DNA of 64,000 bases from NCBI RefSeq assembly GCF_001695835.1, contig NZ_MBSO01000017.1, positions 1 through 64,000 of the forward strand, given 5' to 3'. Made by a program: the position numbers and the translations under genes. The notes under the pieces were generated by a model. It saw nothing but the letters and a program-made list of their open reading frames with translations. It searched no databases and had not been told where the DNA came from. Position 1 is the stretch's first letter; each line of letters opens with the position of its first letter. Shown here piece by piece: positions 2,094-6,989 of the stretch. This stretch comes from Ensifer sp. LC11. Its GTDB lineage: Bacteria; Pseudomonadota; Alphaproteobacteria; Rhizobiales; Rhizobiaceae.

Positions 2094-2630
2094 ATTCGCA
2101 GACCGTTCAAAGCGGACGCCCCAGTCAAGGAGGGGCCGCGCTCAAACAAGGAAATCCGGGTTCCCCGCGTTCAACTTATCGATGCCGAAGGCCAGAATAT
2201 CGGCAACGTGCCAATCGACCAGGCGCTCCGCATGGCGGAAGAAGCCGGTCTTGATCTGGTTGAGATCGCACCGAACTCCGAACCGCCGGTGTGCAAGATT
2301 CTGGATCTGGGCAAGCTGAAATACGCCAACCAGAAGAAGGCGGCCGAAGCGCGCAAGAAGCAGAAGATCGTCGAAATCAAAGAAATCAAGATGCGCCCGA
2401 ACATCGACACGCATGACTATGACGTGAAGATGAAGGCGATGAATCGGTTCTTTGAAGACGGCGACAAGGTCAAGGTCACGCTGAAGTTCCGCGGCCGCGA
2501 AATGGCGCACCAGGAACTGGGCATGAAGCTTCTGCTCCAGGTCAAGGACGACACCCAGGCGATCGCCAAGGTGGAGGCCGAGCCCAAGCTCGAAGGCCGC
2601 CAGATGATGATGGTTCTGGCGCCGCGCTGA
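2094..2630 (+). CDS. infC: translation initiation factor IF-3
   Basis: A 178-residue protein; the length is right for IF-3 only if translation begins at ATT 2094. IF-3 binds the 30S subunit, prevents 50S joining and proofreads start-codon selection. The frame reads Arg-Arg-Pro-Phe-Lys, then the conserved Asn-Lys-Glu-Ile-Arg-Val-Pro-x-Val-x-Leu-Ile block, the lysine-rich linker, and the C-terminal domain with Lys-x-Arg-Pro-x-Ile-x-x-His-Asp-Tyr-Asp. The ATG at 2208 would remove most of the N-terminal domain. A non-AUG start is known to make infC sensitive to IF-3 level (autoregulation), and this is likely here. A strong terminator follows directly, so infC is separate from rpmI-rplT. Confidence 0.95.
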
Positions 2631-2795: not shown

Positions 2796-3293
2796 ATGTA
2801 TGCAGCGTTGCGCAAGGTTTTACTCGTTTCCACCGCCGGCATTTGCGGGCTGGTGGCGGCGCCTCTCGGCTTGTCTTTGGCTGCGAACGGCCCTGCTCAT
2901 CCCCTGTCGATCGCCGCGCTTGCCGACGATGACGACGATGATCGTGGCGGCTCGGGTGGCGATCGTGACGACCGTGATCGCGACGACGATCGCGGCCAGG
3001 ACGATGACGACGACAATGATGATGACGACCGGGGCCTAGGCCCTCGCGATGATGACGATGACGATTTCGACGACGCGCGTGATCCGCATGAGATCGAGTT
3101 GCGGGTTTCCGATGAGAGCCTTCGCGGCCTGCGCAATGGATCGCTGGTCGCGGTCGACAATCTTGGCCGCGTCCTTGAGGTTGACGTGGACTACGAGCGT
3201 GGCATCCGGATCGTGACGGGCGAGCCGTACGACAGCGATATCCGTCGCAACCCGGGGCCGGTCACCAGCGTCTCGATCCGCCCGGCGCCCTGA
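2796..3293 (+). CDS. secreted Asp-rich protein, first gene of the PepSY/two-component module
   Basis: A 165-residue protein with no recognised full-length family. Residues 1-42 form a long signal sequence (basic start, hydrophobic stretch with Leu/Val/Ala). Residues 44-93 contain about 30 aspartates broken only by Arg, Gly and a few others, a polyanionic tract able to bind Ca2+, Mg2+ or other cations. Residues 98-165 form a small folded-looking domain (Glu-Leu-Arg-Val-Ser ... Val-Leu-Glu-Val-Asp-Val-Asp-Tyr) resembling a short PepSY-like half, but this is not certain. The start at 2796 is chosen for the AGAAGGA site upstream; an earlier in-frame start (2751) would spoil the signal peptide. 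The similar acidic PepSY gene and the two-component pair downstream suggest a shared signalling role. Confidence 0.75.
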   Translation: MYAALRKVLLVSTAGICGLVAAPLGLSLAANGPAHPLSIAALADDDDDDRGGSGGDRDDRDRDDDRGQDDDDDNDDDDRGLGPRDDDDDDFDDARDPHEIELRVSDESLRGLRNGSLVAVDNLGRVLEVDVDYERGIRIVTGEPYDSDIRRNPGPVTSVSIRPAP

Positions 3294-3386
3294 CGTGTTC
3301 GGAATGGCCCCGGCGCATTCACCCCGCACCATGCGCCGGAGCAAGGGTCGCTCGCCACCAGCCCGCCCGGCGGTTCGACCCGGCCA

Positions 3387-3429
3387 GCGCATACCCCCCG
3401 TGCCGACCCCGGCGCTGGGGGTATGTGCG
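3387..3429. repeat. inverted repeat between the two Asp-rich genes
   Basis: GCGCATACCCCC (3387-3398) pairs with GGGGGTATGTGC (3417-3428), with one mismatch in 12 and an 18-base loop. There is no T run after it. It could be a processing or attenuation hairpin of the upstream transcript, or an operator. The rest of 3294-3585 shows no gene. Confidence 0.45.
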
Positions 3430-3508
3430 TTGCTGGTCTTGTCGGCGCGGCTGGCGTAGGTTCGCGTTGGCAACCGCAGGCTGCTTGAAGGCAAGTGGGC
3501 ATCTCGTC

Positions 3509-3537
3509 TTGACGGATCGTTCCGCATACGCGCTAAG
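3509..3537 (+). promoter_or_regulatory. possible sigma-70 promoter for the PepSY - two-component genes
   Basis: TTGACG (3509-3514) and GCTAAG (3532-3537) are 17 bp apart. The -35 box is good and the -10 weak. Its position about 50 bp before the second Asp-rich gene would give that gene and the regulator pair their own transcript. Confidence 0.3.
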
Positions 3538-3585
3538 GAAAAGCCCGCTGAACGGAACGAGGGGCAATTGCGACCGGATGAAGCC

Positions 3586-4068
3586 ATGGCGATGACACGA
3601 CGAAACCTGATCGCGCTCCTTTGCTGTTCGCTTGTGCTTTCGCTTGCGCCGCAGCCCGGCGGTTCGGCCGCATTGGCCGAGGACGACGATTCGGACGACG
3701 GCGGTTCGGGCGGCGGGGGTGGTCATGGCGGCGGCTCGGGGAGCGGTGGTCACGGTAGCGATGATGACGACGACGATGACGATGATGCCGATGACGACGA
3801 TGAGGTTGGTCGGGACGGTGCCGGCCGCGGCCGCCGGAGTGACCAGGAGCGCGCGCGGGCAGGGGTCGAAAAGGGTGACATCCTGCCGTTGAAGGATGTT
3901 CTGCGGCTTGTCGACGAGGACAGGTACGGCACCGTCATCGCGATCGATCTCAAGCGCTCGGGCGGCGGGGAGATCTACAGGCTGCGCACGCGCGACCGAC
4001 AGGGCACCATCCGCAACCTGCGCATCGACGCGCGGACCGGCAAATTCATGAACATCTTCGGTTTCTGA
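3586..4068 (+). CDS. secreted acidic PepSY-domain protein
   Basis: A 160-residue protein (from ATG 3586). Residues 1-30 are a signal sequence or anchor (Leu-Ile-Ala-Leu-Leu-Cys-Cys core). Residues 32-73 alternate Asp runs (up to 9 in a row) with Gly/His/Ser repeats, a metal-binding look. Residues 94-160 form a PepSY domain: Asp-Ile-Leu-Pro-Leu-Lys-Asp-Val-Leu ... Ile-Tyr-Arg-Leu-Arg-Thr-Arg-Asp ... Ile-Asp-Ala-Arg-Thr-Gly. PepSY proteins next to PhoPQ-like two-component genes are common and are thought to modulate the sensor. The response regulator begins 7 bp after this stop, which argues for one operon. A TTG at 3568 and an ATG at 3592 are alternative starts. Confidence 0.8.
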   Translation: MAMTRRNLIALLCCSLVLSLAPQPGGSAALAEDDDSDDGGSGGGGGHGGGSGSGGHGSDDDDDDDDDADDDDEVGRDGAGRGRRSDQERARAGVEKGDILPLKDVLRLVDEDRYGTVIAIDLKRSGGGEIYRLRTRDRQGTIRNLRIDARTGKFMNIFGF

Positions 4069-4075
4069 GGACGGA

Positions 4076-4741
4076 ATGCGGATTCTTCTGGCAGAAGACG
4101 ATCCCAACATCGCAGCGCACGTGGCAACCAGGCTTGAGGCGGAAGGCTATGGCGTCGATACGCTTGTCCATGGGCCCGACATCTGGGAGCAGGGCGAAAG
4201 CGGTAACTACGCCCTGGTCATCCTCGACCTCGGTCTGCCGGGTATGGACGGGCTGTCGATCCTCAAGCGCTGGCGGCAGGCGGGAGTGGAGACGCCGGTC
4301 CTGGTCCTGACGGCGCGCGGCTCCTGGATGGAGCGGGTAGACGGCTTCGATGCCGGTGCCGACGACTATTTGCCGAAACCTTTTCGTGCCGAGGAGCTGC
4401 TGGCGCGGATGAGGGCTCTGCTGCGGCGCGCCGGTCCCCGTCTGGCATCGGTGCGCGCAGCCGGCCGCTTCACGCTGGACGAAGCCACCCGGCGCGTGAC
4501 CTTCGACGGGCAGCCGCTTGAGCTCAGCCCGCTCGAATACCGCATGCTTGCCCTGATGGTCACGCGCAAGGGAGAGGTTGTCACCCCGCTCGAACTGGCG
4601 AGCCACGTTCAGGGGCGGGATGACGATGCGGCCAAGAACGCCGTCGAGGCAATGGTCGCGCGCCTGCGCAAGAAAACCGAGAGCGGTGCGATCGAAACGC
4701 GGCGCGGATTTGGCTACGTGTTGCCGGATGGCACGGCATGA
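4076..4741 (+). CDS. OmpR/PhoB-family response regulator
   Basis: A 221-residue protein. The receiver domain (1-115) has the acidic pair Glu7-Asp8-Asp9, phospho-acceptor Asp51 in Leu-Asp-Leu-Gly-Leu-Pro-Gly-Met-Asp-Gly, Thr in Leu-Thr-Ala-Arg, and Lys in Leu-Pro-Lys-Pro-Phe. The winged-helix DNA-binding domain (about 125-218) carries Leu-Ser-Pro-Leu-Glu-Tyr-Arg and the closing Arg-Arg-Gly-Phe-Gly-Tyr-Val-Leu. Its stop overlaps the kinase start (ATGA), so the two are translationally coupled. By domain layout it is PhoP-like. Targets are unknown, but the acidic PepSY genes upstream are natural candidates. Confidence 0.93.
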   Translation: MRILLAEDDPNIAAHVATRLEAEGYGVDTLVHGPDIWEQGESGNYALVILDLGLPGMDGLSILKRWRQAGVETPVLVLTARGSWMERVDGFDAGADDYLPKPFRAEELLARMRALLRRAGPRLASVRAAGRFTLDEATRRVTFDGQPLELSPLEYRMLALMVTRKGEVVTPLELASHVQGRDDDAAKNAVEAMVARLRKKTESGAIETRRGFGYVLPDGTA

Positions 4742-6105
4742 TCCGCTCGCTCAGGCTGCGGCTTGCAATCGGCGCGTCGGTTGCCATCGGCCTGGTGCTT
4801 TTGGTGGTGTGGTATTCCTTAAGTAGCCTCTTCACCGGCTACGTCGTCGGTCGCTATCGCGCCGAAATGGCAACCCTCGTCGATACGGTCGCCGCCCAGG
4901 TGAGGGTGCGCAACGACCAGCTCGTGTTGCCGCGCGAGCCGGCCGACCCGCGTTTGAGCCTGCCTGCCGGCGGTCGCTACTGGCAGCTCAGCCGCGATGG
5001 CGGCGCTCCCATTCGTTCGCGCTCCCTGTGGGATACGGTGATCGACATCGGTCAGGCGTCCGCGCCACGCCATTTGGGTTTTCTGGAGGTGGAGGGGCCG
5101 GACGGGGCGCCGGTCCTGGTCTACCAGCAAAGCCTGACGCTTGGTGAAGGGGTGGGCGCCCGGCGGTTCGCGGTTGCGGCTGGCTTTTCGCGCGGCGAGC
5201 TCGACGATGCGCTTTCCGCCTTTCACGGCCAGATCCGGCTAATGCTGCTGGCAACCGCCCTCGTGCTTGCCGGTGCAGCACTCCTGCAAGGCGCGCTCGG
5301 GCTCGCGCCGCTCGCACGCCTGCGAGAGCGGGCGGCGCGCGTTCGTTCCGGCGAGGAGAGGGACTTCGGTTCGGCGGGCCCAAGCGAGGTGCAGCCGCTC
5401 GTCAGTGAGATCAACCTCCTGCTTGCCGAGCGCGAAACGGCGCTCGCGCAGGCGCGTGCCCGCGCCAGCGATCTTGCTCATGGATTGAAGACGCCGCTGA
5501 CTGTGCTTGCACAGCTTGCCGAGAGCCTGCCACAGGAGCAGCGCGCGATTGCCCTCGAACAGGTCGACCTCGTGCGGCAGCGCGCCGACCGCCAACTTCA
5601 GGCCGCCCGCATGGGTGTCGAGCGCATGGCAACGACCTCGATCGCCAGCCTTGGCAACAAGCTGGTCAGTGTCTTGCGCCCGGTGACCGCCGAGCGTGGC
5701 GTTGCCTGGGAGATAGACGTTGATCCGTCGATCTCGCTCGACGTTGATCCGGCCGATCTGGCGGAATGTCTCGGCAACCTGCTCGACAACGCTGCCAGAT
5801 GGGCGCAGGCGCGCATCCGCCTTTCGGCTGAAGAGGATCACGGTCGGGTGCGGATCGCCATCGGCGACGACGGCCCCGGTGTTGCCGAGAGCGACCGGGA
5901 ACACGTGATGCGCCGTGGAGCGCATGGCAGCGCCGCCGGTCCTGCCTCTGCCTCGGGCTCGGGGCTGGGGCTGGCGATCAGTGCCGATATAGCCGAGGCC
6001 TACGGGGCGGTCCTTTCTCTCGGCCAATCGCCGTTGGGCGGTCTTGAGGCGGCGCTGGCTTTCGATGCGCGCGGCCGTCGTCACCGGCCACGTGATCCGG
6101 CTTAA
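4738..6105 (+). CDS. PhoQ-like sensor histidine kinase
   Basis: A 455-residue membrane kinase. TM1 is at about 9-31, a periplasmic sensor region at about 32-160, and TM2 at about 165-190, followed by a HAMP-like linker and the catalytic core. His248 in Leu-Ala-His-Gly-Leu-Lys-Thr-Pro-Leu is the phosphorylation site. The N box is Leu-Gly-Asn-Leu-Leu-Asp-Asn-Ala-Ala, and the G boxes are Asp-Asp-Gly-Pro-Gly-Val and Gly-Ser-Gly-Leu-Gly-Leu-Ala-Ile. The H-box type matches PhoQ-like kinases. It overlaps the regulator gene by 4 bp. The periplasmic domain could meet the acidic PepSY proteins or the cations they bind; that link is inference. Confidence 0.92.
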   Translation: MIRSLRLRLAIGASVAIGLVLLVVWYSLSSLFTGYVVGRYRAEMATLVDTVAAQVRVRNDQLVLPREPADPRLSLPAGGRYWQLSRDGGAPIRSRSLWDTVIDIGQASAPRHLGFLEVEGPDGAPVLVYQQSLTLGEGVGARRFAVAAGFSRGELDDALSAFHGQIRLMLLATALVLAGAALLQGALGLAPLARLRERAARVRSGEERDFGSAGPSEVQPLVSEINLLLAERETALAQARARASDLAHGLKTPLTVLAQLAESLPQEQRAIALEQVDLVRQRADRQLQAARMGVERMATTSIASLGNKLVSVLRPVTAERGVAWEIDVDPSISLDVDPADLAECLGNLLDNAARWAQARIRLSAEEDHGRVRIAIGDDGPGVAESDREHVMRRGAHGSAAGPASASGSGLGLAISADIAEAYGAVLSLGQSPLGGLEAALAFDARGRRHRPRDPA

Positions 6106-6341: not shown

Positions 6342-6545
6342 ATGCCCAAGATGAAGACGAAATCGTCTGCCAAGAAGCGGTTCAAGATCACCGCGACCGG
6401 CAAGGTTCGTGCAGCAGCTGCTGGCAAGCGCCACGGCATGATCAAGCGTACCAACAAGTTCATCCGCGACGCACGTGGAACCATGGTTCTCGCGGAACCT
6501 GATGGCAAGAAGGTCATCAAGAACTACCTGCCCAACGGTCTCTAA
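6342..6545 (+). CDS. rpmI: 50S ribosomal protein L35
   Basis: A 67-residue, strongly basic protein with the L35 signature [14 protein letters not shown] and the central Ala-Gly-Lys-Arg-His. GGAG lies 8 nt before the ATG. rplT follows after 39 bp in the usual operon order. L35 is a component of the large ribosomal subunit. Confidence 0.98.
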
Positions 6546-6584: not shown

Positions 6585-6989
6585 ATGGCACGTGTAAAAC
6601 GCGGCGTAACCGCTCACGCCAAGCACAAGAAGACACTCAAGGCAGCCAAGGGCTTCTACGGCCGCCGCAAGAACACCATCCGCGCTGCAAAGGCTGCGGT
6701 TGATCGTTCCAAGCAGTTCGCTTACCGCGACCGCAAGGTCAACAAGCGCAATTTCCGCGCTCTCTGGATCCAGCGCATCAACGCTGCCGTCCGCGAATTC
6801 GGCCTGACCTATGGCCGCTTCATCGACGGTCTGAACAAGGCTGGCATCGAAGTCGACCGCAAGGTTCTGTCCGACATGGCGATCCATGAGCCGGCAGCAT
6901 TCGGCGCCCTCGTCGAAGCTTCCAAGAAGGCGCTTGCCTATCTCAAGGAAGCCGGCACGGCCAACGAATTTGAAAGCGCTGTTCGTTAA
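6585..6989 (+). CDS. rplT: 50S ribosomal protein L20
   Basis: A 134-residue L20 with a typical basic N-terminus (Met-Ala-Arg-Val-Lys-Arg-Gly-Val) and the conserved Phe-Tyr-Gly-Arg-Arg-Lys-Asn and Trp-Ile-Gln-Arg-Ile-Asn-Ala-Ala blocks. It binds 23S rRNA early in 50S assembly and in many bacteria represses its own operon. AAGGAG is placed 9 nt before the start. A terminator follows at 7031. Confidence 0.98.

Follow-up and report, generated by a model that had tools for sequence, protein, structure and literature searches.

PepSY proteins encoded beside two-component pairs are widespread, and few of them have been studied. The 64,000-nucleotide stretch of Ensifer sp. LC11 analysed here (contig NZ_MBSO01000017.1, positions 1 to 64,000; hereafter the window) carries at positions 2796 to 6105 a four-gene operon of this kind, in which two secreted-type acidic proteins, P1 and P2, precede a response regulator (RR) and a sensor histidine kinase (HK). 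Several known systems come close to it. In Vibrio cholerae the PepSY protein DbfQ binds the sensor of DbfS with a Kd of 30 nM and, by inference, tips it toward phosphatase activity; the DbfQRS cascade contains positive feedback, and dbfQRS-like neighbourhoods are reported from several phyla, some of them with a pair of DbfQ-like proteins encoded upstream (PMC12714742). DbfRS responds to membrane-damaging antimicrobials. In Pseudomonas aeruginosa PA2659 and PA2658 are encoded upstream of BqsRS (CarRS), and only the nearer PA2658 is predicted to bind BqsS (PMC12714742), which senses Fe2+. Sinorhizobium meliloti has FeuN, which binds FeuQ and holds it in check (PMC12714254), and its FeuPQ pair responds to the peptide NCR247. 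UipA and LanP are PepSY proteins with acidic metal-binding faces, and UipA adjoins a two-component pair, UipRS.

The operon in the window is real and conserved, and it is of the PepSY-two-component type with an extra accessory protein. All four genes lie on the forward strand: P1 (165 amino acids, 2796 to 3293), P2 (160 amino acids, 3586 to 4068), the OmpR/PhoB-type RR (4076 to 4741) and the membrane HK (4738 to 6105), with a putative operator before P1 and a strong hairpin between P1 and P2. As originally predicted, only 7 bp separate the end of P2 from the start of the RR gene, and the HK start overlaps the RR stop codon (4739 to 4741) by 4 bp. With DbfQRS the locus shares a gene for a small, presumably secreted PepSY-like protein directly upstream of RR and HK, well within the four genes by which dbfQRS-like neighbourhoods are defined, and a feedback that is reported in V. 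cholerae and inferred here; it differs in the long acidic Gly/Asp linker of P2 and in P1, which heads the operon and has no PepSY match. The arrangement of two small secreted genes before a two-component pair is that of PA2659-PA2658-BqsRS, PA2658 and P2 being the nearer partners, but both P. aeruginosa proteins are PepSY proteins, and the ExxE motif for Fe2+ described for BqsS is absent from the sensor in the window (residues 33-165). FeuN, a small periplasmic protein restraining a sensor kinase, resembles P2 in the role that we propose, although the FeuN-like open reading frame (ORF) has no acidic tract. UipA and LanP share PepSY domains with P2; theirs are in tandem, and the passages compared do not mention a poly-Asp tract. 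Homology of FeuN to P1 or P2 was tried and rejected (hhalign probability 0.1 and 0.5%). The nearest paralogue of the kinase in its own genome (L002, 31% identity, E 9.9e-36) is, to judge by its gene order, presumably FeuPQ.

On balance, and with moderate confidence, we read the locus as an autoregulated envelope-signalling operon of four genes, with P2 holding back the kinase and P1 as an accessory. This reading is built on the linkage of the genes, on the conserved repeat and hairpin and on the conserved parts of the proteins, which are observed. Phosphorylated RR would bind the CTGACA-N5-CTGACA repeat before P1 and drive its own operon, and the hairpin would make P1 more abundant than P2, RR and HK. 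P2 would be exported, its PepSY-like domain would bind the periplasmic sensor of the kinase and, by analogy with DbfQ and DbfS, push it toward phosphatase activity, and an envelope disturbance or a metal would relieve the restraint; the precedents of DbfRS and BqsRS make an envelope or cation signal plausible. P1, encoded farther from the RR, would be a non-essential accessory, co-induced as an output or as an outer feedback element.

Three sets were searched for relatives of the kinase: 61 genomes close to the window, the GTDB species collection, which gave 16 named loci, and 397 genomes of the order, 232 of which had a match; the first and the last survey each contributed their best 30 loci at most by kinase score. 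A PepSY-like gene lies immediately upstream of the RR gene, in the same orientation, at 64 of the 66 kinase loci (L001 and L009-L073), or at 56 of 58 when eight duplicates are removed. The loci were chosen by kinase score and are not a random sample, therefore the linkage holds for this kinase type and not for all kinases. Whether the acidic pair stands beside homologous kinases in other genomes, as expected, has a divided answer: P2 accompanies them with few exceptions, P1 only in Rhizobiaceae operons of the P1-P2-RR-HK type. The PepSY profile was made from 19 P2-type sequences, two of them from more distant loci (L024, L028).

The aspartates of P2 do not share this constancy. P2 contains 27 Asp, 19 of them within one 50-residue stretch, and consists, after its signal region, of a linker with Gly/His/Asp runs (residues ~35-80) and the PepSY-like domain (~83-160). 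By the 50-residue count P1 and P2 rank first and second in Asp among the 224 ORFs of the window with at least 100 amino acids (the third has 13 Asp), so that the description of an Asp-rich pair was correct. Yet in the Ensifer adhaerens group the PepSY part of P2 is 81-91% identical to that of the window and the linker only 30-69%, and Asp runs are missing from the linkers of fredii-clade P2s. When the linker between signal and PepSY domain was classified in 55 modules by simple charge counts with a crudely set signal end (leaving aside the eight duplicates, the window, L053 and L063), it counted as acidic in 21 and as near-neutral in 13; three linkers were basic, among them those of L026 and L027 with long stretches of Arg and Lys, and 18 had fewer than 12 residues. 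Given this variation, the module does not owe its working to the aspartate run of P2. As judged from sequence comparison, P2-RR-HK is the constant core and poly-Asp lies outside it; the Asp/Gly tracts look like flexible, clade-specific, fast-changing acidic spacers rather than a sensor, and two tandem poly-Asp proteins are a feature of this clade and not of its relatives outside. With poly-Asp as a clade-specific form of linker, attention moves from the tract to the contact between PepSY domain and sensor.

Both P1 and P2 have signal-like N-termini with a basic n-region, a hydrophobic core and A-x-A, as judged by eye. By a crude count, 32 of 55 PepSY proteins have a twin-arginine in the n-region of the signal; in P2 it reads T-R-R-N-L-I-A (window 3586-3680). 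It is possible that these PepSY proteins, P2 included, are exported by the twin-arginine (Tat) route, which would fit a protein loaded before export.

The putative operator array (2705 to 2744, strand unassigned) consists of CTGACA-N5-CTGACA (2705-2721) followed by CTCAGC and CTGTCAG. In all 15 aligned P1 promoters CTGACA-N5-CTGACA is invariant and is followed by CTCAG and TGTCAG, with a phasing of about 11 bp, and the shorter form TGACA-N6-TGACA precedes P1 in each of the 22 P1-type operons, the window included, for which upstream DNA was available. The exact CTGACA-N5-CTGACA occurs only twice in the 6.2-Mb genome (a reversed-pattern control gave no site). Among 32 distant modules without P1 (P1-type loci, among them L046, were set apart, as were L023 at a contig end, L053 and L063) the reverse-complement form TGTCA-N6-TGTCA was found within 450 bp before the PepSY domain in 19, against 0.02 expected from shuffles and none of 32 in HK coding sequence taken as control; the first TGTCA is followed by G in all 19, and in four further modules the first half reads CGTCAG, at a comparable distance. 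OmpR-family regulators usually bind tandem repeats spaced by one helical turn, and the array is therefore most simply read as a sign of autoregulation. The second exact site in the genome (L074 1501-1517, TGTCAGCTAAATGTCAG) lies before a TctC-like gene, with a kinase gene (L004) about 4 kb away; it probably belongs to a TctD-type regulator, and the repeat type may be common to these regulators. The repeat CTGACA-N5-CTGACA was also seen just 3' of the kinase gene in several distant modules (L026 2908, L047 2842, L049 2854, L055 2863 and L067 2905, in kinase-strand coordinates), where it possibly serves a convergent or downstream gene. UzcRS was considered as the same system and rejected: its reported motif, CATTAC-N6-TTAA (PMC8963506), is different.

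The hairpin in the gap between P1 and P2 (3387 to 3428, forward strand) has 19-nt arms and a fold energy of -44.9 kcal/mol (z -7.07). A strong hairpin was present in all 20 P1-P2 gaps examined, and 18 of these were stronger than all of their 60 shuffles; L040 and L045 (assembly gaps) and L042 and L043 (P1 off the contig) did not enter the set. The hairpin sequences differ markedly between genera, and a T-rich tail is present in some and absent in others. Among members of the E. adhaerens group double changes were found in only 2 of 16 pairs, therefore the case for the hairpin rests on its recurrence. It is probably a partial terminator or an element of mRNA processing or stability.

P1 contains 37 Asp, 30 of which lie within residues 44-93. 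A signal region (residues 1-43) and the Asp tract (44-98) are followed by a C-terminal domain (residues ~96-165) with the motif G-S-L-x-A-V-D-x-L-G-R-x-L-E-V. In the AlphaFold2 model the predicted local distance difference test score has block means of 74-90 at residues 101-165 and is low elsewhere. The domain had no match in Pfam, and its model found no convincing match to a solved (PDB) fold by Foldseek structure search (best E 0.092) or by VIA-align (best Z 3.3); in a one-against-one hhalign comparison it showed a weak link to the P2 domain (92.6% over 39 columns). A search of 297 family genomes with this domain alone located it in 12, from 6 of 109 genera, and all 12 genomes carry it in a P1-P2-RR-HK operon, which bears out the expected linkage of the acidic pair to the regulator pair. 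In literature searches, with most subscription papers outside their coverage, no paper on this operon was among the matches listed. P1 is an accessory of a sort that we did not find described there, with an uncharacterised domain, and is most likely an abundant acidic accessory. What is gained for one large alphaproteobacterial branch is a constant core, a candidate operator that can be tested with reporters and a second, co-conserved secreted protein.

Several observations weigh against the autoregulated operon with P2 as a restraint of the kinase. P2 itself scored only 17.3 bits with the Pfam PepSY model (PF03413), below the gathering cut-off of 24, for which reason we name it PepSY-like; the PepSY assignment made earlier finds support in the relatives, since 8 of the 10 scanned in the gene position of P2 exceed the cut-off. 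No PepSY gene was found in 2 of the 58 modules (L053, L063), and the exact repeat is absent in 13 of the 32 distant modules. Co-variation in 38 pairs was not sensor-specific, the partial r being 0.42 between PepSY domain and sensor and 0.45 between PepSY domain and catalytic part. Read on the reverse strand, the repeat (TGTCAG-N5-TGTCAG) is close to a Pho box, and 13 of the 16 genus genomes carry a TGTCAG-type repeat ~61-76 bp upstream of a PlsC-like acyltransferase gene (L095-L110; in L107, L108 and L109 none was seen in the 130 bp read upstream). In the window genome this repeat is one of 19 TGTCA-N6-TGTCA sites. It, too, looks like a Pho box, that is, presumably a site of the phosphate regulon. 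The acyltransferase gene was rejected as a target of the module, since genome G008, which has no module, also carries the site. Because of the likeness to the Pho box and of the site in a module-less genome, the repeat is no proof of action by this RR.

Of the other explanations, the one that survives best, which we consider possible and rather unlikely, is that the tracts are products of drift, GAC/GAT and Gly-codon expansions that act as mere spacers, and that P1 has no signalling role. The tract in the window indeed consists of repeat units of the GAC/GATGAC type, and in Rhizobium sp. Root1334 most of P1 is made of 17.5 copies of a 27-bp unit (L041 2140-2612). The length of the latter array likely differs between strains. 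P1s of the fredii clade have a homologous signal region and, as their tail, a Gly/Thr/Ser repeat, of which the array in L041 is an instance; at E 1e-3 no C-domain is seen in them. The module itself can be lost: the kinase is present in 14 of the 16 genus genomes, G008 has only a short gap between infC and rpmI, the genes that flank the module in the window, and in G014 this gap keeps a remnant coding for the C-terminus of the module kinase (L115 1921-2310), therefore the module is dispensable and was lost in both. Drift does not, however, easily account for the retention of P1 with operator and hairpin across six genera, nor for a tail that stays acidic despite changed letters. The net charge of the tail is negative, from -3 to -31, in all 17 P1s carrying the C-domain, and negative (-28, -22, -21 and -10) in four fredii-type P1s, one of which (L045) is partly masked; the fifth (L040) has +3 and spans an assembly gap. 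Selection on P1 may thus keep the charge and not the letters, which is the strongest point for a role of cations. Disordered tails of secreted proteins are often acidic, therefore the acidic tail of P1 is no proof of function.

The original prediction has divalent cations bound by the poly-Asp tracts, which would buffer them for the sensor of a PhoPQ-like kinase or hand them on to it. Beside the persistent charge of P1, the metal-binding PepSY proteins UipA and LanP and the sensing of Fe2+ by BqsS speak for this, as does a paralogous PepSY-RR-HK module that an Ensifer genome carries on a different replicon (L113 4130-8489), followed by a heavy-metal P-type ATPase gene (TIGR01525 above cut-off); there, and for that paralogue only, the context hints at metals as the signal. 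The L113 module is preceded by a divergent b-type cytochrome gene. The basic, near-neutral and very short linkers of same-kinase modules and the nearly neutral tails of some P1s (-3 in L130, -4 in L044) speak against cation buffering, and so does the sensor. The domains of RR (PF00072, PF00486) and HK (PF02518) are clear in Pfam, and the kinase has a periplasmic sensor at about residues 33-165 with the signature Y-W-Q...R-S-R-S-L-W-D, an invariant His248 and a HATPase domain at 337-438. The sensor is not acidic: it has 15 acidic and 14 basic residues, and only E43, D70, D99 and E154 stand at positions that are acidic in at least 60% of the sequences. The best matches of the HK core and of the RR were PhoQ and PmrA, both far under the family cut-offs; the full-length PhoQ model gave 129.6 bits against a cut-off of 497 and aligned only residues 172-445. 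An acidic patch in the sensor is a feature of PhoQ. The window sensor differs from those of the enterobacterial PhoPQ and PmrAB systems in lacking this patch and, in Pfam, any match to the PhoQ sensor, and on these grounds, together with the score, the identity of the kinase as PhoQ was rejected. The list of VIA matches of the HK model covers mainly residues 288-447. The sequence comparison weakens the poly-Asp hypothesis for P2, whose linker is variable and whose PepSY part is better conserved, and we regard cation buffering by the tracts as improbable.

We give slightly less credit to an electrostatic decoy, in which induced P1 and the tail of P2 would serve in the periplasm as a sink for polycations or cationic antimicrobial peptides and the kinase would sense the envelope damage that these cause. 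The tails of P1 in the E. adhaerens group, with net charges of -22 to -31, and the excess of P1 suggested by the hairpin would suit such a role, and the responses of FeuPQ to NCR247 and of DbfRS to membrane-damaging antimicrobials offer parallels, but the tails of L130 and L044 carry little net charge. More speculative still, and in our view a long shot, P1 could represent a new class of secreted signalling accessory, an autoregulated and over-produced sponge, acidic and intrinsically disordered, that has a small docking domain and, jointly with the PepSY protein, sets how much of a cationic ligand is free for the kinase to see. If so, the circuit would sense the saturation of its own acidic buffer, the ligand would be a metal or an antimicrobial peptide, and it would be the net charge, not the letters, that selection maintains. 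That the operon belongs to the phosphate regulon, with PhoB in place of the local RR on the CTGACA/TGTCAG repeats, is very improbable, since, in spite of the resemblance to the Pho box consensus and of 19 TGTCA-N6-TGTCA sites in the window genome against one in the control, the repeat precedes the PepSY genes of many distant modules, always with G after the first TGTCA, and the full CTGACA form has only two sites in the genome.

The closest named relatives at the locus are E. adhaerens and its allies. In the window the module stands between infC and rpmI-rplT. The conserved upstream neighbour infC (2094 to 2630, forward strand), which codes for IF3 with an ATT start, lies outside the module and is separated from it by its own terminator at about 2655-2681; downstream follow rpmI (6342 to 6545, forward strand) and, at 6585, rplT. 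Related operons occupy the infC-rpmI site in other genera as well (L131-L133), and infC also precedes L129.

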